Shown: piece after piece, positions 9,205-23,582 of the stretch
Layout: each line of letters starts with the position of its first letter
How positions within the stretch are numbered: position 1 is the first letter of the stretch
Notes under the pieces: generated by a model
Told to the model about the DNA's origin: nothing
What the model saw: only the letters and a program-made list of their open reading frames with translations
Databases searched by the model: none
Position numbers and translations under genes: made by a program
Virus record (IMG/VR): IMGVR_UViG_3300031952_000140
Span: 1-24,001 of that record
Origin: a virus
Reading direction: 5' to 3' (one strand)
Length of the DNA stretch: 24,001 nt

Positions 9205-12200
9205 CTATTGAGAACCTACGAACTGATTAAGTGTAACTCCAAAAGTAGTACCTGTTTGTGCAATTAGTTGTCCCAACTTAGTACTAAGTATTTTAGCTAA
9301 TACATTACCATCTATAGTTAAAGTCACATCAGAATTAGTAGTCAAGTTAATCTGTGTTTTAATAGGAGGTATGTTTATAGCTTGTGCTACCCCTCTATCT
9401 CCTAACCCACCACTATCATATGGTGTAATTGCATCTGTTCCATTTCTGGTAAATCTTTTAAGGTAATCTTGTGCTGTAAGTTTTTCTGTAGTTGCTGCGT
9501 CTACTCCATTTCTAGTAAATCTATTAAGGGATTCCTGAGCACCTAATTTTTGTGTATTTTCTCTAATAGCTTGGGTATTAGCATCTAAAGCCGGAGAAGC
9601 AATACCACTTTGTAGAATTCTATATAATTCTCCAAGTGCACCTGTACCAGTACCTTGTTGTGATTTCCAACTCATTTCAGCAGCCTGATAGGGTACATAG
9701 AATTCTGCACCAGAAGGAAGATTATACATACCTTGGATATCTTTAGTATTATCAGAGATTTCCTGTAATAGACCGGAGAGAATAGCCATATCCACAAAGG
9801 CAAGTTTGAAAGTATCAGGCCCACCGTTAGGATTAGTTACCTTCATAATCTGCAACTCTTCATTCTTTTTCCAACCATAAGGGCCGAAGTTCTTTTCCAA
9901 ATCTGCTATAAGTTTAGGATAGGCTGCCTCTGCTTGTTTAAGTTGGTCAGGTGTAGCAGTTATACCTGAAATACCAAGATTAGGATTGAAATTCATTGAT
10001 TCCTTTCTAACGTCTTCTAGAGCTTTTTGCAAAGAATCGGCAGAACGTCCATTTACTTCTACCCAAACATCACCAATTTTAACGAGTACCTTTTCAGCAA
10101 GATTAGTTTGTACTTGTGCTAATTGGTCATAGGTATTTGTCATTACATCTATTTGTATTTTTTGAATTTTATCTGCACCATCTTTAGCTAAATCAAATTC
10201 TTTCTGACTTTGGAATTTAAGATCAGTTATACTTGGGGGTTTAGCATTTGCTAATGCAAACTGTTCTGCTTTGAGTTTAAACTCTGGCCCAAAATTAGTT
10301 TTCAGGGCATTTTCCTTAGCTATCATTGCATCTAATTCAGGCCCAACTCTACCTTGTTTCTTAGCTTCGGCTATCTTAGTTTCAAGATCGGTTATCTCAG
10401 AAGTCATGGATTGCAGTTCACCTAATTGATCTGCTGTTAAACCCATTACTGTTTCAGTGATATATTTAAGAGTATCCGCCCAATTAGTAAATTTAGTAGG
10501 GTCTAGATTATAGCTAGAAATCTTATCAAATGCTCCTGCACCTTTATACAAAGCAGCCAATGTATTGGATACGTTAGTATTACCAGTACCTAATAGTTCT
10601 GTTTGTCTCTGGTATTCCGTTCTTGATATATTTTTTGTAGGAGAGTAATATGCTGCCTGCAAACCCGTCTTAGCATTAACATTAGCTAGTCTTAAGGGTT
10701 CAGCCAATGCAGAGGCAATATCACCACTTAGTTTAACAAAAGGAGAATTTACATCCACTCTACCAACAGATGACGCACCCGCTACTTTTGTATTATAATC
10801 AGCAATTAGTTTAGCATATTCCCCAGGAAAAGCTTTTGCTACAGCATCAAATAATTGTTGTTCAGTTAAACCTGGTCCAGCCGTTCCTCTGAATCCAGGA
10901 ATTGCAGCAATTTCTTGTGGAGTTAACCTTCCTGCTAAACCTTGTATTCCTTTTTGTAAGATTTCATTTTTTGATAACTTATTTTTCTCCGCTTCAGCGA
11001 TATCAGCAGCAGCCTTTAAAGCATCAGCTTTGGCTTGATCTGATTCAGGTGAAATACCAGCAGGAATAAGTGTTCCAATATTTGCTCCACCTTTACCACC
11101 AAATCTACTATCCCATATATTAAGCATTGATTCCCCAGCGGAAGAACCAATAGCAGCACCAATAGCTACAAGTGCAGGATTTAAAGTTAATGCTCCTAAT
11201 ATGCCACCAGCAATACCTCCACCAATATTAGCATATGCTGCACGACTGTTTCCACCTAGTGCGTTCATAACAGCAGGTATACCCGCACCAGCAGCACCAG
11301 CAACTATACCAGTACTCCATAATGTTCTATTAGGATTAGCAAGAACACCACCCATAGCTGTATTAGTGGCAACTTGTTTATTAGTTTGCCAACCCTCACT
11401 AGTAAATGATTTTCCGGCTGGATTTGTAGCAAGTCTTCCAGCAATACCACCAGCCATACTAGCCATAGTTGCTAATACACTGCCCTGTCCAATAGTACTA
11501 AACAAACTCTTATAAGCTATAGCTAAACTAACAGCAGTTAGAGTACTTGCACCCATTACACTACTAATTGCAGTAAAACCATCAACTAACCAAGTCAAAG
11601 CCTCTGTTAGGGCTTTAAAGGTAGGCAGTAAACCCCCCTCTGTACCTAAAGTTCTAGCTAATTCCGAGAAAGATGTACCTAAGTTAGTAATCTTAGCCTG
11701 TGTAGTTGTCAACTCAAATTGAATGGCTCTTTCTGCCTGTCCTTGAGGATTAGCTTGTGCAGTTACTATATCATTAATATTACCCATACCAAGCAATAGA
11801 GAAGTAACCCTAGACATACCCCTGTTACCACCAGTCATAGCCATAGCTATTCTATTCTTCTGTGATTCATTAATAGCACCAGACTGTATCATGGCAGCTA
11901 CTTGAGAATAAACATCAAGTAAACCTCTCATGTTACCCTCAGTATCCTTTACTGAAACACCAAACTGTCTCAAGACTTCTTGTGAACCCTGAGTAGTATA
12001 ACCAGCAATAATACCTCTCATGGCATTACCAGTTTCTTTAGCAGAGGTAATTTGTGCTGTAGCTACAATAGCAGTAATAGCATTTAGTTCTTCAATACTT
12101 AAACCTGCATCAGTAGCAGCCTGCCCTACAATAGCAAAGGTAGAAGCAAGCGTAGCAACTGGTACATTAGCTGCTCTAGCTGTAGCTTGCCACTTATCAA

Positions 12201-14298
12201 GTAATGTCATACCTTGGTCTAGTGGGATATTCATTTGAGTAAGAGAAGCAACTAAAGTATCTGTAGCTTCTGCCTGAGACATACCAGACATCTTAGCTAA
12301 AACAATTGAATCATATAATAACTTATTAGTAACTACAACTCTTTCTACTTCATCCCTATAACCAGCACTGGCTTGTGCAGCCATAGCATAACCTTCAACA
12401 ACACCAGTAAGAGATTCACCAGTTTTCCTAGCAATATCAGCAGCATCAAAGAAGACTTGATTTAAACCTTTTTGAGATAATTGCATAACAATAGCCACAT
12501 CAGCTAGTCTAGCTTCTTGGTCTATTGTATCCTGCATTAACTGTCCAAGTTTCTGTAGGGGTAAATAAACTAAAGTAACAGCCGCCGTCCAGCCAATAAA
12601 CTCTTTAGTATTTCTAGCAATTCGTTGAGTAAGAGTAGAGAAACGATTAGAGAAGTCAGTAAGTACTTGTCCAGTTTGGGGATTGAAAAACACCTTATTG
12701 GACATATTCATCCCAGTAGCAGTATCCTTATACTGGGAAGAAATATAACCTACATTTCTATTCTGTTCTGTATTAATACTTCTAATATTACCAACATTAG
12801 CAAAGTTAGTTTTATTTAGTAAATCTCCTTCTTGTAACTTACCCCATACTGCACTGTATCTAGGATTAGATTGAAAATTTCTAGCTGTTTGTTCTTTAAT
12901 AGCAGCAGCCCAATCTGCTTGCACCTGCATTGGATTAACTTTTGGTGCAGGTGGTACAGGTATCTGATTAGGTTGATTATTCCATGTTTTACCCAGCGCC
13001 ACTTCTTTTTCCCAAGGACTCTGCTTTGTACTCATCCATGAAGGAGTTTGGGTAGATGGTTTTTGTCCAGCGTTTCTTGCTAATTGATTTATTTGATCTT
13101 GTGCTTGTTTAACAGCTTGCTGTGCAACTTGTTCAGATAATACTTGTGTAGAAGCTGCTACTTTAGCTTGTAATGAGGCATTGGGTGGTAGGCGTGTAGT
13201 AGCATTTGAAGTTACACCGAAAGCAGGAGTGGGGGGAACATGAGGAGTTAAACCACTTGGCACACCAAGATCAACACCTTGATTAACTGCATTTTGGAGT
13301 ATTTGTTTAGCATACTCATTTGCAGCAAGCTCTCTAGGTCTATCCATGTGTTGTGCTTGTGTTGCAGTACCATTTGCTCTAAAAGTAGCTTCATCAGCAA
13401 GACTTTTAAGACGTTGTTCTTGAGTCATTTTATTAGTATCAACAGCATGACCCATCTCATGTAGACTTGAGTATAATTCTCTTTGTGACTCAGTAACATC
13501 CCCTGGTTTGACTTTAAATGCATCTGCTATAATAGGTGTATAAAGATCACGAGTTTCTTGGGTTTGTACAGTTATACCTTTCTTTTTACGAAGTTCATCA
13601 GATATACTTTTGATTGTGTGGACTTTACCAGTATCTTTAGCTGAACTGGCAGCATTATACTCACCTGCTATTAGATTAATATCACCAATTTCAGGGTCAA
13701 GAAGTTTGGCAAGTTTCTGTGCTTGTCTGGCTAAAGGACGCACTGTCTGAGCATTAGCTTTGGCTAAATCTGCTTTTGCTTTCTCCAATCTTTGTTGTGC
13801 TTTTAACTCTCTTTGTGCGTCTAATACAGCTTTTTCATCTTGCTGTATTTGAGTAAGTACAGGAGCAATAGAAACTTTTTTAGCAGCAGCCGCCTGTTGT
13901 GCAACTAATCTTTTAGCGGCAGAAGCATCTTTAAGTGCCTGTGCATCTGTTAATTTTTTAGCTTGCAGAAATTCTTCGTTGCTTTTTACTACTAATTGGT
14001 GGCGTATAGTTTGTGCAATATCTCCAGGATGTGCTGGAGCATTGGCTTTACCCAAACCAATTTGAGGTATATTCTTATCTAAGTCTTTTAGTGTAGCATT
14101 AAGATATTGTTGTATCTGTCTGGCTAAACCCGTAGCTAATTGTTTAGACCCTACTTGTGGATTAATGGCAACATAGCCTTTATTCAAGGCATCGTTAATA
14201 ATTCTAGTAAAGTCAGTACCACTGACTAACTTAGAATAACCCAACAAGTTTTGCTTTATTTGTTCTTGCAGTTTCTTTACATAATCTGTATAGTTCAT
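9205..14298 (-). CDS. tape measure protein with embedded HExxH metallopeptidase motif
   Basis: This is a 1697-residue protein, the largest in the window and placed right after the tail chaperone. Residues 100-200 are Ala/Gln/Lys-rich helices. Residues about 225-335 hold a zincin-like motif: LHEMGHAVD with H280, E281 and H284, followed by RELAANEYA with E323 as probable third zinc ligand. Residues 350-470 are Pro/Gln-rich and low in structure. Residues about 580-880 match the TP901-type tape measure core (RKTGESLTGVVEGYAMAAQAS, NVPVATLASTFAIVGQAA, SAKETGNAMRGIIAGY). Hydrophobic Ala/Gly-rich segments (about 900-1060) may insert in the host membrane. Helical segments continue to a beta-rich C-terminus that would dock on the hub. 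The tape measure sets tail length and leads DNA entry. The start lacks a strong binding site (TAAGATAAAAG), so coupling to the frameshift ORF that ends 8 bases upstream is likely. Confidence 0.93.
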   Translation of the reverse strand: MNYTDYVKKLQEQIKQNLLGYSKLVSGTDFTRIINDALNKGYVAINPQVGSKQLATGLARQIQQYLNATLKDLDKNIPQIGLGKANAPAHPGDIAQTIRHQLVVKSNEEFLQAKKLTDAQALKDASAAKRLVAQQAAAAKKVSIAPVLTQIQQDEKAVLDAQRELKAQQRLEKAKADLAKANAQTVRPLARQAQKLAKLLDPEIGDINLIAGEYNAASSAKDTGKVHTIKSISDELRKKKGITVQTQETRDLYTPIIADAFKVKPGDVTESQRELYSSLHEMGHAVDTNKMTQEQRLKSLADEATFRANGTATQAQHMDRPRELAANEYAKQILQNAVNQGVDLGVPSGLTPHVPPTPAFGVTSNATTRLPPNASLQAKVAASTQVLSEQVAQQAVKQAQDQINQLARNAGQKPSTQTPSWMSTKQSPWEKEVALGKTWNNQPNQIPVPPAPKVNPMQVQADWAAAIKEQTARNFQSNPRYSAVWGKLQEGDLLNKTNFANVGNIRSINTEQNRNVGYISSQYKDTATGMNMSNKVFFNPQTGQVLTDFSNRFSTLTQRIARNTKEFIGWTAAVTLVYLPLQKLGQLMQDTIDQEARLADVAIVMQLSQKGLNQVFFDAADIARKTGESLTGVVEGYAMAAQASAGYRDEVERVVVTNKLLYDSIVLAKMSGMSQAEATDTLVASLTQMNIPLDQGMTLLDKWQATARAANVPVATLASTFAIVGQAATDAGLSIEELNAITAIVATAQITSAKETGNAMRGIIAGYTTQGSQEVLRQFGVSVKDTEGNMRGLLDVYSQVAAMIQSGAINESQKNRIAMAMTGGNRGMSRVTSLLLGMGNINDIVTAQANPQGQAERAIQFELTTTQAKITNLGTSFSELARTLGTEGGLLPTFKALTEALTWLVDGFTAISSVMGASTLTAVSLAIAYKSLFSTIGQGSVLATMASMAGGIAGRLATNPAGKSFTSEGWQTNKQVATNTAMGGVLANPNRTLWSTGIVAGAAGAGIPAVMNALGGNSRAAYANIGGGIAGGILGALTLNPALVAIGAAIGSSAGESMLNIWDSRFGGKGGANIGTLIPAGISPESDQAKADALKAAADIAEAEKNKLSKNEILQKGIQGLAGRLTPQEIAAIPGFRGTAGPGLTEQQLFDAVAKAFPGEYAKLIADYNTKVAGASSVGRVDVNSPFVKLSGDIASALAEPLRLANVNAKTGLQAAYYSPTKNISRTEYQRQTELLGTGNTNVSNTLAALYKGAGAFDKISSYNLDPTKFTNWADTLKYITETVMGLTADQLGELQSMTSEITDLETKIAEAKKQGRVGPELDAMIAKENALKTNFGPEFKLKAEQFALANAKPPSITDLKFQSQKEFDLAKDGADKIQKIQIDVMTNTYDQLAQVQTNLAEKVLVKIGDVWVEVNGRSADSLQKALEDVRKESMNFNPNLGISGITATPDQLKQAEAAYPKLIADLEKNFGPYGWKKNEELQIMKVTNPNGGPDTFKLAFVDMAILSGLLQEISDNTKDIQGMYNLPSGAEFYVPYQAAEMSWKSQQGTGTGALGELYRILQSGIASPALDANTQAIRENTQKLGAQESLNRFTRNGVDAATTEKLTAQDYLKRFTRNGTDAITPYDSGGLGDRGVAQAINIPPIKTQINLTTNSDVTLTIDGNVLAKILSTKLGQLIAQTGTTFGVTLNQFVGSQ

Positions 14299-14306
14299 CT
14301 TTTATC

Positions 14307-15298
14307 TTAGCCTATATCGTCTATATCAAACTCGATATCTTTTTGTATTTTTCCACTGATTACTTCGTCAAGCCACTGTTCCAAATCTTCGGATGTATCA
14401 TCCCATATCTGTCTATCGTTAGGACGCTTGTCCTTCGGCAATTCATACAAATTATCTTGCTGTACCAACTTTCTAGTAACATAAGATAATGTATAGGGCA
14501 TGTCTCTTATTTCTTTTATTCTATTATCTAGGGGTAGGTGTAATGCCTTGGAGACAGACCAGAGAGAAGTTATTGCATTACACCTTGCGATTTTTTTAGC
14601 TCTTCTACTCCAATCTCAAGACCCTGATACTCTGATACTAAACTTTCTTTCAAATCGGTAGGGAGATTATCAAAGTCATCAAAACTATCAAACAAAGGTT
14701 CAGAAAGTGTATTATCTTTATATAAACCTAAGAAGGTAGATATCTCTTTAAACTTCCTATTCACTTCCATATCACATAGATAGTTGATAGTTGTAGTTAC
14801 ATACTCTTTGTATAATATATCCATATCAAGTGTAGACAATCTTTCACGTTCTTTCTCAAGTTTCTTATCCAGTAATCGTCTAAACTCTGCATCAAACTTG
14901 GCTGGATAAGCATCTACTTCTGTTTGATAACTTTCTTGTTTCTCTAACTTAGAATCAGAACGTGCTTCTTTGGGGAAGGGTATAGTAATCTCTTTATAAA
15001 TATCTTGTGCTAACGAGTTTGTCATTGTAAAGAGAGTGTATTCTACCAACCCCTCCTTTTCCATACTATCTTGTTCTGCAATGTAAGCTAATCTTTCATC
15101 GGACTCTAAATCTTTCAGCTTATTACGTAAGTCTCTAGATTTTCTAAGTGAAAAAACTCTGGCACGATTTAGTTCAGCGTCACCAATCAGTCTTATGTAA
15201 CCTTCTAATAGATTACCTTCATAATTTATTGAGAAATTCTTAAACCATTGAAACAGTTTACTTATTGATATATCGTTACGTTCTGGTGAAATAGACAT
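14307..15298 (-). CDS. tail assembly chaperone, long -1 frameshift product (gpGT-like)
   Basis: Reading starts at ATG 15298 in the frame of the 242-residue protein. At A_AAA_AAA (14597-14591) the ribosome can slip back one base after residue 236. The new frame has no stop for 94 codons: ATC GCA AGG and onward, through the ATG at 14501, to TAA at 14307, giving about 330 residues. The extension has SLWSVSKALHLPLDNR, then MPYTLSYVTRK, then an acidic end (DIEFDIDDIG). The 64-residue ORF from 14501 has no good binding site, so it is best read as part of this fusion. As with lambda gpG/gpGT, the short product is expected in excess and the extension to recruit tail tube protein to the tape measure. 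Family similarity to lambda is by position and frameshift layout, not sequence. Confidence 0.9.
14536..14597 (-). promoter_or_regulatory. -1 programmed frameshift signal: slippery A_AAA_AAA plus 11-bp stem-loop
   Basis: In the mRNA, seven A (14597-14591) sit in frame as CT[A AAA AAA], followed by the 5-nt spacer TCGCA. Then AGGTGTAATGC (14585-14575) pairs perfectly with GCATTACACCT (14546-14536) across a 28-nt loop. Slippery heptamer, short spacer and downstream stem are the three parts of a classical -1 signal. The zero-frame stop (14570-14572) falls in the loop. The -1 frame stays open for 94 codons. Confidence 0.92.
14570..15298 (-). CDS. tail assembly chaperone, short product (gpG-like)
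   Basis: This is a 242-residue protein, mostly helical and acidic/basic mixed, with heptad-like segments (KLEKERERLSTLDMDILYKEY). The N-terminal part contains ISKLFQWFKNFSINYEGN and a stretch RVFSLRKSRDLRNKLKDLESDERLAYIAEQ. It lies between the major tail protein (with the inserted GIY-YIG gene) and the tape measure, the standard chaperone slot. It ends SQGVMQ just after the slippery run. The start has AAAGGAA 6 bases upstream. In known systems this chaperone coats the tape measure before the tube assembles. Confidence 0.85.
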   Translation of the reverse strand: MSISPERNDISISKLFQWFKNFSINYEGNLLEGYIRLIGDAELNRARVFSLRKSRDLRNKLKDLESDERLAYIAEQDSMEKEGLVEYTLFTMTNSLAQDIYKEITIPFPKEARSDSKLEKQESYQTEVDAYPAKFDAEFRRLLDKKLEKERERLSTLDMDILYKEYVTTTINYLCDMEVNRKFKEISTFLGLYKDNTLSEPLFDSFDDFDNLPTDLKESLVSEYQGLEIGVEELKKSQGVMQ

Positions 15299-15331: not shown

Positions 15332-15919
15332 TTATTGGAGTAAAATAATCTTTTCTTTTACTGCCTTCTTCCACTTTCTTTTTAGCCACCTTCTTCTATT
15401 AATTAAATCCTCATTAATACTCTCATCTTTTAATCTTTTCCATCCAGTTTTACTATTAATCGTTTGTCCTTTAACTATTCCTCTAATAGCATCATATCCT
15501 AAATTTCTCTCTCTACAAAATTTTGTTAGGTTTTTAATATTCCTATATTCTACCCCATCAGGGGAAACCAAACCTGTCCAAGTTTTTGCACCGTATTCTG
15601 TTCCAGTAGGTATGCCAGCAGGTCTGTCACCAGGGCTATAGGCAATAATAAAAATGTTGTATTCTGGTTTTATTTTGTCTAGTAATTTTTGTTCTTCAGC
15701 CAAAAGAGTCTTCCTGTCATCTGAACATTCAAGTAAAACTTCAAAGATAAAATTATTCTCGCCGTACTTATTCCAATCTTGTTGTAAATAACGATTATGT
15801 TGGCCGTGTCGTAAATAATAAAGATGATCTCTTCGTCTAGATTTGATATTCTTTGAACTTCCTATATAAACTTTATTATTTATTAAATTTCTAATTTGGT
15901 ATACACCCGATTGTTTCAT
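15332..15919 (-). CDS. GIY-YIG homing endonuclease
   Basis: Start chosen at ATG 15919, since AAGAGG lies 6 bases upstream and the catalytic domain begins at once; a longer reading to 15961 lacks a site. The 195-residue protein has GVYQIRN (5-11) and KVYIG (16-20), the two GIY-YIG strands. SRRRDHLYYLRHG (27-39) carries the catalytic Arg and His, AEEQKLLD (74-81) carries the metal-binding Glu, and YNIF (87-90) follows. The C-terminal part (SPDGVEYRNIKNLTKFCRERNLGYDAI..., then GWKRL) looks like a NUMOD-type DNA-binding helical repeat, which would recognise the homing site. It is inserted between major tail protein and chaperone genes. It is a mobile gene, free-standing and not in an intron. Confidence 0.92.
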   Translation of the reverse strand: MKQSGVYQIRNLINNKVYIGSSKNIKSRRRDHLYYLRHGQHNRYLQQDWNKYGENNFIFEVLLECSDDRKTLLAEEQKLLDKIKPEYNIFIIAYSPGDRPAGIPTGTEYGAKTWTGLVSPDGVEYRNIKNLTKFCRERNLGYDAIRGIVKGQTINSKTGWKRLKDESINEDLINRRRWLKRKWKKAVKEKIILLQ

Positions 15920-15921
15920 TT

Positions 15922-15937
15922 TACACCTCTTAGTGTA
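15922..15937 (-). promoter_or_regulatory. hairpin hiding the ribosome binding site of the GIY-YIG gene
   Basis: The minus-strand RNA reads TACAC-TAAGAG-GTGTA just before AAATG. This is a perfect 5-bp stem whose 6-nt loop and first stem base contain the AAGAGG site. Such masking is known for some T4 homing endonuclease genes. Here it is inferred from sequence only. Confidence 0.45.
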
Positions 15938-15938
15938 T

Positions 15939-15990
15939 GGGGCAGGATATTGTAAGAGCAATATCTTTTCGGCCTTCTTAACCTAGCCCC
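15939..15990 (-). promoter_or_regulatory. structured leader of the GIY-YIG gene
   Basis: In minus-strand RNA, GATATTG-CTCTTA-CAATATC (15965-15946) is a perfect 7-bp hairpin. GGGGCTAGG (15990-15982) can pair with CCTGCCCC (15946-15939) with one bulged base, enclosing it; the two share one base, so they may be alternatives or nearly coaxial. No gene lies here. It follows the terminator after the major tail gene, so it could contain or shield a promoter or processing site for the downstream tail genes. Confidence 0.35.
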
Positions 15991-16000
15991 ATTTATAGCA

Positions 16001-16060
16001 AAAGGGAGTTATATTTAATACACACACACAATTAATATGTGTCTATATATAACTCCCTTT
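16001..16060 (-). terminator. terminator after the major tail protein gene
   Basis: ATATAACTCCCTTT (16047-16060) and AAAGGGAGTTATAT (16001-16014) form a perfect 14-bp stem. The loop holds CACACACACA and TGTGT, which extend the pairing. On the minus strand the stem is followed by TTTTGC, a short U-run. It lies 37 bases after the tail tube stop codon, a usual place to limit readthrough from a highly expressed gene. Confidence 0.75.
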
Positions 16061-16096: not shown

Positions 16097-17296
16097 TTAT
16101 GGACGTGCTCCACTATACACCTTGCAGTGTCCATAAGTGGATTTCCAGTTGAAGTTCAATGTAGTATTCTGATTAACATTACCAGCGAAAGCATCACCAG
16201 TAGGTATAATACCATCAATGTAAACTTCCTTGATAACAGTATAAGGCAGAGTGTCATCACAAGGATCAAGTAACTGAATACTCAGTGATGCACCACTAAC
16301 CACACAACCTTCACCAGGGAAGTACTCTGTACCACTAGCCAAGACACCATACTGCAATAAAGCAGTAAGTTCTAGGTCAGTATCCAGCACAGCAATAGTA
16401 CCAGTAACTTCAGGCACTTGCTTAGTACTACCAACAATCTGTCTATTACCCATCTCCCTAACAGTTTGTGTATTCAACGTACCATTGATAGTAACTGACT
16501 GAACTCTAGGAATAGAATTCAAACCAATTTTCACAGGTACATCTTTACCTCTGATAGCAACAGGCATAGTAGCATCACCAACATCTGCCCAACTAAGAGC
16601 AACAGGATCAGACTGATAAACAGCCATGATAATGCCACCACCACCCAGTGCGTCACCTGTGGTCAGCGTGGTAGGTAATGTTACACGATATTCACCTGTA
16701 GCAGGTGCACCAGCAACTTCAGTAAGATACACACCATTCATAATAACTGAAAGCAGGTATCTACCATTTTTCAACACCAAAGGTGTTTGAGTAAGAGCTT
16801 GAGTAACACCAGCAGCTACAAGTTTATCAACAGTAACTTCTTTAGAGAAGTAACGTCTTTCTGAACCAATAGCCGTATAATCTTCAGTGGACTCACCATC
16901 TGCATTGTAAGTAAATGTGAAGTCCCTGATCTGTAATTTTCTTGCATGAATTGTCTTTACATAGTCATTAGTTGTCACGTCTTTGACATACATAATAGCA
17001 TCAATTTCACCAAGACTGGAAATATCTACACCAGCGGCAGGATAAGCTGCTGGATTAGTACCAGTCAATGCAGAGAAGATTTTAATACCAACATCCATAG
17101 CACTAAAGGTCAGTGTTACATTTGGTAAATCCTGCACATTACCTACATGAGAAGCCGAACCAATTTCGTCAACTGTAGTAGAAGGAATGTCTGCATTAAG
17201 GGAAAGTCTTTGAACTCTCGATGCTTTAAATGCTTCAAAAGGCCCAACAATAAATAACTGTAGTTCTTTTGATGCGATACTTGTTCGTTTAGCCAT
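16097..17296 (-). CDS. major tail tube protein with duplicated tube domain
   Basis: This is a 399-residue, beta-rich protein between tail terminator and chaperone. It contains an internal repeat: RVQRLSLNADIPSTTVDEIG, then NVQDLPNVTLTFSAMD (27-69) resembles RVQSVTINGTLNTQTVREMG, then STKQVPEVTGTIAVLD (264-306) in order and spacing. Each half ends in a tube-type strand pair (FTFTYNADGESTEDYTAIGSERRYF, about 126-150; NVNQNTTLNFNWKS near the C-terminus). Residues about 165-230 form an inserted region with QTPLVLKNGRYLLSVIMNGVYL. A two-domain tube protein as in phage T5 pb6 would build a ring from three copies. The gene is less AT-rich than its neighbours, as expected for high expression. The only good site, GGAGG, lies 14 bases before the ATG inside the HNH gene end. 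Confidence 0.88.
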   Translation of the reverse strand: MAKRTSIASKELQLFIVGPFEAFKASRVQRLSLNADIPSTTVDEIGSASHVGNVQDLPNVTLTFSAMDVGIKIFSALTGTNPAAYPAAGVDISSLGEIDAIMYVKDVTTNDYVKTIHARKLQIRDFTFTYNADGESTEDYTAIGSERRYFSKEVTVDKLVAAGVTQALTQTPLVLKNGRYLLSVIMNGVYLTEVAGAPATGEYRVTLPTTLTTGDALGGGGIIMAVYQSDPVALSWADVGDATMPVAIRGKDVPVKIGLNSIPRVQSVTINGTLNTQTVREMGNRQIVGSTKQVPEVTGTIAVLDTDLELTALLQYGVLASGTEYFPGEGCVVSGASLSIQLLDPCDDTLPYTVIKEVYIDGIIPTGDAFAGNVNQNTTLNFNWKSTYGHCKVYSGARP

Positions 17297-17299
17297 CGT

Positions 17300-17998
17300 T
17301 TAAATCATAGCCTCCGTAATATATACAGGTATTTTTGGAATAATATCCAACCTATACTGTATAATCCTATCATTTTTTGAACAATTACAGTGTTTGCAAA
17401 GTAATTGTACATTTTCTAACGTAAGACCGCCACCTTTAGTTAAAGGTATAATATGATCTAGCGTATATCTCACCTTATCATTAAAATCTATTCCACAACA
17501 AGCACACTTTTCTTCTTGAAAAGAGAGTAAAAATTTTATTTCTTCAGTAGTTAAAGTATTCTCTACATTATTTTTCCTGCCTCTCCTTTTATCTTTACAA
17601 AGTTTGTCATTTAGTTTACCCTGTGGGGAAGAGAGGTATCTTTTTTTATTAGGGAGTATTTTATCTTTATTTTTTTCATAATAATTTTTAGAATACTTAT
17701 CAGAATATTTTTTAAAATAATCTAAATTATTTCTGTAATACTCTTTACTTTTTTCTATTAGTCTTTCTTTATTTCTTTCATAATAATCTTTTCCAGATAT
17801 TTCATATATGTCATTATTTTTTCTGTACTCCTCTTGTCTATTTTGTATTCTTTTTTTATTCTTTATATAGTAATCTTTACTATATATTGATAAACAAGAA
17901 GTACATCTTGGAAGAATTCCATTTTTATATCGTTTAGCCCTTGGAAAAAAACTTTCATCTTTTTCTAGGTGACAATATTTACAGATATATAAAGTCAT
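17300..17998 (-). CDS. HNH homing endonuclease
   Basis: This is a 232-residue protein. The N-terminal zinc finger has C6/C9 and C32/C35. A lysine-rich middle carries four repeats of the type K-D/E-YY-x-x-NK (residues 41-115). The C-terminal HNH nuclease has CACCG (165-169), LDHIIPLTKGGG (180-191), N196 and LLCKHCNCSKND (199-210) as metal-site and nuclease residues. It sits between the tail terminator and major tail genes, with 3 bases to the next ATG, and is much more AT-rich than the tail gene beside it, as expected for a mobile gene. The start has AGAGGT upstream. It probably spreads by cutting phages that lack the insertion. Confidence 0.92.
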   Translation of the reverse strand: MTLYICKYCHLEKDESFFPRAKRYKNGILPRCTSCLSIYSKDYYIKNKKRIQNRQEEYRKNNDIYEISGKDYYERNKERLIEKSKEYYRNNLDYFKKYSDKYSKNYYEKNKDKILPNKKRYLSSPQGKLNDKLCKDKRRGRKNNVENTLTTEEIKFLLSFQEEKCACCGIDFNDKVRYTLDHIIPLTKGGGLTLENVQLLCKHCNCSKNDRIIQYRLDIIPKIPVYITEAMI

Positions 17999-20127: not shown

Positions 20128-20853
20128 TTAAACAGCAGCCCACATATCACTCACATCGTTGGGTGTTACAAATTCATACGGCATGTAGAAATATCCGGCA
20201 TCACCCCAACTATTACCCCAAGAATTACGTACAATAAACCATTTCTTGCTATCGTCATAACCAACAACTACAACAGCATGTCCACCTAATACAGATTCCC
20301 AAGCAGTAGGCATGGGCATAACACCATCACTACCAATATTTTCAAATGATTCATAGACAGTAAAACCAATAACTACAGGTAAACCTTCAACTAAATGTGT
20401 TTTAACATCAGTCAGGGTATTCAAACGATGATAAGTAGTAATCTTCCAAATAGAACTAGCATAAGCTTCGTCTGAAGGTTTTTCATCAAATACACTGATA
20501 TCATAGGGCCAGTACTTATTAGCACAAGTACCTACTTTTTGTAGCTGTTTCCAACAATCTCTGAGGTAACAACCACTGTCTTCATCTTCAGTACCTTCAT
20601 CAACTCTGGTGTTATAATAACCAAAAAGCACACTAAGAGGAATAAATTTATCATCAGTCAATCTCTCCTGAAATTCCCTAAAGCCAACCATTGATTGCCA
20701 AGTACAAGAACCTAACTGCCCTTGATCTCTAACAGGAGAGCATGTTTTTCTCAAGTCCACCATTGTAGGAAGTTTTTCTACTGCCAATGTTGGCTTATAT
20801 ATAAAATCCCTTGTATCCGGTTTATCAGGTTTATAACCAAAATAGTGTCCCAT
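20128..20853 (-). CDS. papain-like (C1A) cysteine peptidase
   Basis: This is a 241-residue protein with the full papain plan. PVRDQGQLGSCTWQSM (40-55) has the oxyanion-hole Gln44 and catalytic Cys50 at the canonical 6-residue spacing. GGHAVVVVGYD (190-200) carries His192, and VRNSWGNSWGDAGYF (208-222) carries Asn210. Its length matches the mature C1A domain, with only a short N-terminal segment (GYKPDKPDTRDFIY) resembling the sequence before mature bacterial and viral C1A domains. There is no signal peptide or full inhibitory propeptide. It lies between neck-protein genes, so it may cleave head or neck proteins, or be carried in the virion to act on the host surface. The start has AAAGGAG 5 bases upstream. 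Confidence 0.92.
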   Translation of the reverse strand: MGHYFGYKPDKPDTRDFIYKPTLAVEKLPTMVDLRKTCSPVRDQGQLGSCTWQSMVGFREFQERLTDDKFIPLSVLFGYYNTRVDEGTEDEDSGCYLRDCWKQLQKVGTCANKYWPYDISVFDEKPSDEAYASSIWKITTYHRLNTLTDVKTHLVEGLPVVIGFTVYESFENIGSDGVMPMPTAWESVLGGHAVVVVGYDDSKKWFIVRNSWGNSWGDAGYFYMPYEFVTPNDVSDMWAAV

Positions 20854-20862
20854 TTTTCTCCT

Positions 20863-21297
20863 TTATTCTTCCAAACTACAGTCCAATAATATACGATTCA
20901 AGGGTTGTGCACCACGCAGAATCTTTTTATTAATAACAACCTTTCTTGCATCCACCACTATATAATCAACAGTATTAACTAAGTTTAAAGTATATGGGGT
21001 GTATTCTATTTGCAACCGGACATCCCCTTCCATAAACTGTCCACCAGTTACCCAATTTAGTCCGTCAACACCACCCCATGTAATATGGGCTGAAATCATA
21101 ACATCATTATAAGTATAAATATAACCTATGCCACTACATACATTACAGAATGGATTAGTAGTATTCCCAGTAACAGGGTCTCTGCTACAAGCAGAACACA
21201 CAGTCTCATTTTCTGTATAGAAATGTACTGGACGCCCAATAGCATATCTAATTTTGTCTATAGTATCTTTTGTAGAAGGAAAGGTTATAATTGTCAT
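20863..21297 (-). CDS. neck/head closure-like protein with zinc ribbon
   Basis: This is a 144-residue protein. Residues 18-30 (YAIGRPVHFYTEN) lead into CSAC (34-37), SRDPVTGNTTNPF and CNVCSG (51-56), a four-cysteine zinc ribbon. A beta-rich rest follows (HITWGGVDGL, GDVRLQIEY, VDYIVVDARKVVINK). This build is common in the small head-tail joining proteins after the connector gene of siphoviruses. Its ATG overlaps the glycosyltransferase stop (TAATG), so the two are co-translated. Confidence 0.7.
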   Translation of the reverse strand: MTIITFPSTKDTIDKIRYAIGRPVHFYTENETVCSACSRDPVTGNTTNPFCNVCSGIGYIYTYNDVMISAHITWGGVDGLNWVTGGQFMEGDVRLQIEYTPYTLNLVNTVDYIVVDARKVVINKKILRGAQPLNRILLDCSLEE

Positions 21298-22481
21298 TAC
21301 ATTAAACTCTTAAATAATTCATTCCAAGTACCAGCAATTGTTTTCCAGTTGTATTCAGGACTATTGAATTTTTCAAAACTCTTTTCAGATAGAGTTTTAT
21401 ATAGTTCTTTATCAGAATAAATCTTATCCAAACCTTCAGCTACATCTACCGCTGTAACAACTCTACCAGTAGTCATGATATTATCTTGCGTCCAAGTAAA
21501 CTTAGGTTTCACTATAACACCACAATCTGAATATAGTTCTTTCAATGCACTATGTCCTGCTACAACTTGTGGTGCACCAAGAGATGCATGTTCAAAATTA
21601 GGTAAACCCCAACCCTCACCAATACCTGTATTAATACCTACTTCACAAGAATTATAAATAAGATTTAGTAGTGCAACTGGTGCAGCTTGTGCACCATTCC
21701 TGGTATTAGTAACAATCAATCTGTCACCCAAATCATATCTATCAGCATACTCTAAGATATCAATGTGCTGGTCAATTCTACCCATGTGTAGATACATTTT
21801 GATATTCTCTGGTTTACCTTTGACAAACTCTGCAAAGCCCTGTATAGTAAGGTCTATTCTTTTCCTGGGTTGATTACGATTAGCATTTAGTACTATGAAT
21901 GAATCTAGGAAATCTTCTCTATCAGGTAGAATCTGTTTCTTGATAAGTCTCTTATCTACACCCTGTATCTTGAAGAAATCTTCATGTTCCACACCGTGTG
22001 GGATTACACTTACAGTCAAGAGGGGGGCAGCCTTTCTAATAACTTTCTTACCAAATTCAGTATAAGTAACTATCTTATCAACTGTATCAAATTCTTTATA
22101 CCAACTGGGTGAATGATCTTCAGAATCTACAGGTATATAAGTTACAATTTTTGGGGGAGTTTTATCTCCGAAAAGACGCTTAATTTCCTTTAGGTATGTC
22201 CTTACAATCCAAGCATCATTTAGTATGAAGATAATATCTGGCGTCCAATATTCAATAATCTCTTCGAGTCTACTAATACCGTATGCGTCATTACCCCGTA
22301 TATTAGCAGGAAATATCATGTAGGGGTATGGTTGTGGGTCGCCTTTATAGTTAATCCCTAAACCCCTGACTTCATATTCCTCTGGTGATAAATGATAAAT
22401 TATAGAGTGTGAAACTCTTGAAAAACCCGTAGGCACAACTAAATCACTGATCCATAAGACCTTTATTTTTTCCTTTTCCAT
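21297..22481 (-). CDS. GT4-type (GT-B fold) glycosyltransferase
   Basis: This is a 394-residue protein with two Rossmann-like halves. The N-terminal half has VLWISDLVVPTGFSRVSHSI (8-27) and later DIIFILND (82-89). The C-terminal nucleotide-sugar half has IVLNANRNQPRKRIDLTI (196-213, the Asn/Arg/Lys donor loop) and NTGIGEGWGLPNFEHASLGAP, in which E289 and E297 form the E-x7-E motif. GT4 enzymes move a sugar from a nucleotide donor to an acceptor. No membrane segment is seen. Its place between two neck-protein genes in the virion operon suggests it modifies virion proteins rather than DNA; the acceptor cannot be told from sequence. The start has AGGAT shortly upstream. Confidence 0.9.
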   Translation of the reverse strand: MEKEKIKVLWISDLVVPTGFSRVSHSIIYHLSPEEYEVRGLGINYKGDPQPYPYMIFPANIRGNDAYGISRLEEIIEYWTPDIIFILNDAWIVRTYLKEIKRLFGDKTPPKIVTYIPVDSEDHSPSWYKEFDTVDKIVTYTEFGKKVIRKAAPLLTVSVIPHGVEHEDFFKIQGVDKRLIKKQILPDREDFLDSFIVLNANRNQPRKRIDLTIQGFAEFVKGKPENIKMYLHMGRIDQHIDILEYADRYDLGDRLIVTNTRNGAQAAPVALLNLIYNSCEVGINTGIGEGWGLPNFEHASLGAPQVVAGHSALKELYSDCGVIVKPKFTWTQDNIMTTGRVVTAVDVAEGLDKIYSDKELYKTLSEKSFEKFNSPEYNWKTIAGTWNELFKSLM

Positions 22482-23549: not shown

Positions 23550-23582
23550 TATTAGGGGAGGTTTCTTAGGCCTCCCCTAATA
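23550..23582 (-). other. 12-bp hairpin between capsid gene and next gene
   Basis: TATTAGGGGAGG (23550-23561) and CCTCCCCTAATA (23571-23582) pair perfectly across a 9-nt loop. In the minus-strand RNA no U-tract follows (AAAGAAAGGAAA, the next gene's Shine-Dalgarno, comes instead), so it is not a textbook terminator. It may protect the capsid mRNA end, act as a processing site, or attenuate the downstream genes. TATAGTAT occurs twice just upstream, in an AT-only stretch (23583-23622) that could also hold a promoter; I see no convincing -35/-10 pair. Confidence 0.5.

Follow-up and report, generated by a model that had tools for sequence, protein, structure and literature searches.

The window analysed here is a 24-kb virus contig (24,001 nt) from IMG/VR, in which the tail genes lie on the minus strand. 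The features considered below are as follows.

16097-17296, minus strand: probable tail-tube (major tail) protein
14570-15298, minus strand: short tail chaperone (gpG-like), 242 aa
14597-14591, minus strand: slippery heptamer A_AAA_AAA, after the codon CTA and in phase with the short chaperone ORF
14590-14586, minus strand: 5-nt spacer TCGCA between heptamer and stem
14585-14575, minus strand: 5' arm of the stem, AGGTGTAATGC, with the conserved core GTAATGC at 14581-14575
14574-14547, minus strand: 28-nt loop
14572-14570, minus strand: zero-frame stop TAA of the short chaperone, inside the hairpin loop
14546-14536, minus strand: 3' arm of the stem, GCATTACACCT, with the conserved core GCATTAC at 14546-14540
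14307-14591, minus strand: -1 frame extension (gpT-like), 94 codons and a stop, holding a 64-aa ORF (14307-14501)
9205-14298, minus strand: tape measure protein, directly downstream of the chaperone

The tape measure protein is assigned through PHROG tape-measure families (best E = 2.3e-21). The short chaperone is defined by the family alignments A1 and A5 and by its place in relatives, flanked by the probable tube gene and the tape measure gene. The tube protein is named mainly by position, together with a weak PHROG match (virion structural protein, E = 1.8e-4); its family co-occurs with the chaperone in relatives, where the order tube, chaperone, tape measure is kept. In both the window and the relatives, two ORFs overlap immediately 5' of the tape measure gene, with the second of them read in the -1 frame. 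One relative has an additional 78-aa ORF (L006:11326-11562) separating the extension from the tape measure gene.

Several other elements occur nearby. A GIY-YIG endonuclease gene (15332-15961, minus strand; Pfam E = 6.5e-10) lies between the tube and chaperone genes, and ORFs of other lengths occupy the same site in five relatives (L016, L018, L020, L023 and L026), suggesting an insertion hotspot. A second endonuclease-like gene (17300-17998, minus strand; PHROG endonuclease VII/HNH, E = 9e-29) immediately precedes the probable tube gene, and the structural gene region also includes a papain-family cysteine protease gene (20128-20853, minus strand; Pfam E = 1e-20) and a possible glycosyltransferase (21297-22481, minus strand). 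The probable tube gene is followed by a terminator-like 14-bp hairpin with a short T run (16001-16060, minus strand). Nearly all relatives checked carry strong hairpins at this site, many of the form GGGGCTA.../...TAGCCCCTTTT, and the hairpin may reduce expression of the chaperone compared with that of the tube protein. Perfect inverted repeats of 18 bp (625-669) and 12 bp (23550-23582, in an intergenic gap), each with a 9-nt loop, are also present.

Relatives were reached mainly through the probable tube protein. Queries with the chaperone and the tape measure protein retrieved only one contig, 99.6% identical, while the tube protein query proved a productive bridge to 24 further IMG/VR contigs, and an alignment of the chaperones from these tube-linked contigs returned 80 loci. 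The analysis covers 81 related loci (67 distinct sequences) and 12 held-out loci, the latter comprising ten new contigs retrieved with an alignment headed by the most distant clade, plus two that belong to metagenome-assembled genomes. These two (L102 and L103) sit in genomes labelled Brevinema and Parcubacteria, and may be stray virus contigs rather than evidence of host. A tRNA search of 20 loci as a clue to the host found none. Among isolate phages in the phage collection, none matches the chaperone family beyond chance; the best isolate protein match, from Agrobacterium phage OLIVR1 (E = 0.6), is a Schitoviridae structural gene beside the portal gene and was rejected.

Near the end of the 242-aa ORF, the zero frame reads CTA AAA AAA TCG CAA GGT GTA ATG CAA TAA, so that the A7 run is phased as A_AAA_AAA. 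The earlier note had proposed a seven-A slippery heptamer in the correct frame, and its position is exact to the base. All 81 related loci carry an in-phase heptamer near the end of the short ORF (AAAAAAC in L022 and L046 only), and an in-phase heptamer with an open -1 frame is present in 12 of 12 held-out loci; homologues without the A run or with a -1 frame interrupted by stops, which the note had named as evidence against its proposal, occur in neither set. The A run is exactly seven nucleotides long in 65 of the 67 distinct sequences, six in the other two, and never longer. The codon preceding the two lysines (14597-14599, minus strand, in the window) is CTA in 58 of the distinct sequences and TTA in the other 9, a bias opposite to that in the remainder of the chaperone gene (TTA 546, CTA 316), and ATA in one held-out locus. 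Selection seems to act on the bases 5' of the heptamer. The zero-frame stop follows the heptamer directly in one group, lies ∼21-24 nt beyond it in most of the rest, and as far as 60 nt away in a few. Upstream Shine-Dalgarno-like stimulators are not enriched (18 of 67 sequences, against a background of 19%).

From 14591, the -1 frame reads IARCNAITSLW... for 94 codons, up to a TAA at 14309-14307 that is separated by 8 nt from the tape measure ATG (14298). The predicted long form therefore has 236 + 94 = 330 aa, and the earlier figures for the frame, the gap and the fusion all hold when computed from the sequence. In relatives the -1 frame is open for ∼94-102 codons or, on contigs that are too short, up to the contig end. 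The encoded peptide is conserved from its first residue at the slip site (IARSNAIASLW...K.LQIPLD), and its divergence is biased to third codon positions, with pairwise differences of 292, 136 and 488 at -1-frame codon positions 1, 2 and 3 within the stretch that precedes the site of the window ATG. Together with the lack of a conserved start codon, this pattern argues for an extension without a start of its own that is under selection at the protein level from the slip site onward.

The hairpin of the window also agrees to the base with what had been described, namely a 5-nt spacer, an exact 11-bp stem and a 28-nt loop. By itself this stem is only mildly unusual. The 76-nt fold has a folding energy of -16.5 kcal/mol (z = -2.1), matched by 8 of 200 shuffles, and synonymous-codon shuffling of the window sequence alone gives a non-significant p = 0.17. 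Perfect inverted repeats of at least 11 bp with loops of up to 60 nt number 8 in the 24 kb, compared with 0-2 in ten first-order random sequences, and an Rfam search of the window found nothing. Since the window stem alone is not decisive, the comparison with relatives decides.

With offsets numbered from the final A of the heptamer, the 5' arm at 10-16 pairs with 45-51 (6 or 7 of 7 pairs) in 38 distinct sequences, in the variants GTAATGC/GCATTAC, GCAATGC/GCATTGC, GTAACGC/GCGTTAC, GCAACGC/GCGTTGC and GTAGTGC/GCACTAC. In a background-corrected covariation scan, the pair 14-47 comes first and the pair 11-50 fourth among all column pairs; each links third positions of -1-frame codons, and changes in these pairs are therefore largely synonymous. 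The compensatory changes that the earlier note suggested looking for are thus present, in a 7-bp core that covaries at third codon positions. In this core 87.2% of cells are paired, compared with at most 40.5% when the stem is slid, and 41 cells show double changes, compared with 15.7 in shuffles. When synonymous codons are shuffled with the amino acids fixed, the summed folding energy of the natural sequences (-1192 kcal/mol) lies far below that of the shuffles (-841 +/- 23 kcal/mol, z = -15), and perfect 7-bp arms occur in 39 of 67 sequences, compared with a mean of 5.0 and a maximum of 11 in 200 shuffles. A sign test on the chaperone tree could draw on only 5 well-supported independent pairs, which is too small a number for significance. 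The two partners changed jointly in 4.5-4.8 of them and went opposite ways in none, and no link was seen in mismatched controls. A convincing stem is absent in several relatives (L027, L046, L066 and L071). A base-paired structure that starts ∼5-9 nt after the heptamer is thus supported by evolution, though it is not found in every relative.

The partner of the 5' arm is not always found at the same place. The 5' arm is nearly fixed, while the partner lies at +45 (as in the window), +34 or +57 depending on the clade. In the +57 type, the 5' arm (mostly GCAACGG or GTAACGG) pairs with 57-63 (CCGTTGC or CCGTTAC) in 14 distinct sequences; 13 of these are placed in the tree, where they make up a single clade (support 99/93). 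In the +34 type, found in 5 distinct sequences on one side of a branch (82/59), it pairs with 34-40. All three types recur among the held-out loci. The hairpin therefore appears rewired, and synonymous compensatory changes preserve the pairing within clades. The slip site is universal among the loci compared, and the stimulator is common but labile. We lean towards a stimulator that has been repeatedly rewired around an almost fixed slip site and 5' arm, the partner of that arm changing place or giving way to an overlapping helix from clade to clade, as if selection held the frameshift ratio rather than any one structure.

The arrangement is best explained as a programmed -1 ribosomal frameshift signal of the lambda G/GT type, to which we assign a probability of about 0.93. 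Most ribosomes, we infer, would read past the A run and stop at 14570, yielding the 242-aa chaperone. In a minority, the two lysyl-tRNAs on AAA AAA, delayed by the hairpin 5 nt downstream, would re-pair one base back, and the slipped ribosomes would read on for 94 codons to give a 330-aa fusion whose reading frame closes 8 nt ahead of the tape measure gene. If the two forms act as their lambda counterparts do, the short one would be bound along the tape measure, and the tail-tube protein would be brought in by the extension. The hairpins start 5-9 nt downstream of the slip site, where the usual spacing of a downstream structure is 5-8 nt (PMC4066793). Shifting at the percent level is plausible here, since 10% frameshifting in E. 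coli has been published for one cassette of seven A's (PMC3711429).

Other readings of the overlapping ORFs fit less well. Were the 64-aa ORF an independent gene with its own start, the heptamer being incidental, the ATG at 14501 would serve as that start; this ATG is extension codon 31 and recurs at that position only in L058 and L069. No start codon is conserved anywhere in the extension, 18 of the 67 distinct sequences lack any ATG there, and the 30 codons ahead of the ATG are among the most conserved of the extension. A separate gene is hardly credible on this evidence, and the earlier suggestion that the ORF is not one is borne out. Alternatively, RNA polymerase might add or drop an A within the A7 run, so that part of the mRNA already encodes the fusion. 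A-runs can slip in transcription, and runs longer than 7 are listed for that route (PMC3711429), but here the run does not exceed 7, the two AAAAAAC members keep a ribosomal heptamer while shortening it, and the covarying hairpin lies downstream at the distance of a ribosomal stimulator. These three features favour ribosomal over transcriptional slippage, which we regard as very improbable.

A further question is whether the -1 signal is real but stimulated by a pseudoknot or another helix rather than by the simple 11-bp stem. The 28-nt loop is long, and in several of the nearest relatives of the window an overlapping 8-bp helix (15-22 with 33-40) is found instead of or besides the core stem. 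The covariation scan ranks core-stem pairs high and contains no high-ranking pair between the loop and downstream sequence, although pairs fixed by the protein cannot be judged in this way. For want of such covariation in the relatives, the pseudoknot proposed in the earlier note is unsupported, and we consider a stimulator other than the simple stem unlikely.

Neither protein significantly matches any characterized chaperone family or fold. Pfam and PHROGs give no convincing match for the short chaperone or the extension. The AlphaFold model of the short form is confident (pLDDT 89.6), and Foldseek matched it to nothing in PDB or BFVD at E <= 0.001, while that of the extension (pLDDT 69.7) is too weak for a structure search. 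The chaperone role consequently rests on position and architecture. Low sequence similarity between the G/GT genes of different phages is known (PMC5009743), and the missing family match is therefore not evidence against membership.

In the lambda system the tape measure is the binding partner of the short protein, and the tube protein that of the T part (PMC5009743). Lambda G/GT (Levin 1993; Xu 2004; reviewed in PMC5009743) shares with the arrangement predicted here a short protein and its -1 fusion, encoded by overlapping ORFs just before the tape measure gene. Both also have an in-phase X_XXY_YYZ slip site close to the end of the short ORF. The slip site of lambda is G-rich (GGGAAAG), whereas that found here is A_AAA_AAA and is followed by a covarying hairpin, and the libraries used reveal no sequence or fold similarity to named families. 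Tail-assembly genes of Paenibacillus larvae phages (PMC6256562) share the AAAAAAA heptamer, the gene context and a predicted -1 shift; they belong to isolate phages and are tentatively annotated, in contrast to the present family, which has no isolate match in the phage collection. The signals of E. coli dnaX and IS3-family elements (PMC4066793, PMC5009743) likewise combine an A-rich heptamer with a downstream structure at short spacing, but lie in other genes, and differ from the signal described here, which shows no upstream Shine-Dalgarno-like enrichment. What the alignments very probably reveal is lambda-type G/GT frameshifting in a chaperone family that no library used here recognizes.

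The frameshifted tail chaperone is itself a familiar phage device, found here in a large group of uncultured phages, throughout which annotation of the small downstream ORF as a gene of its own would be wrong. The 67 distinct and the held-out sequences form a large, varied and naturally occurring alignment of a single phage frameshift signal. Evolution can be used to judge its slip site, its frame and its hairpin alike, which makes the case directly testable. The apparent relocation of the 3' arm offers a natural experiment in the tuning of frameshift rates by spacing and loop length.
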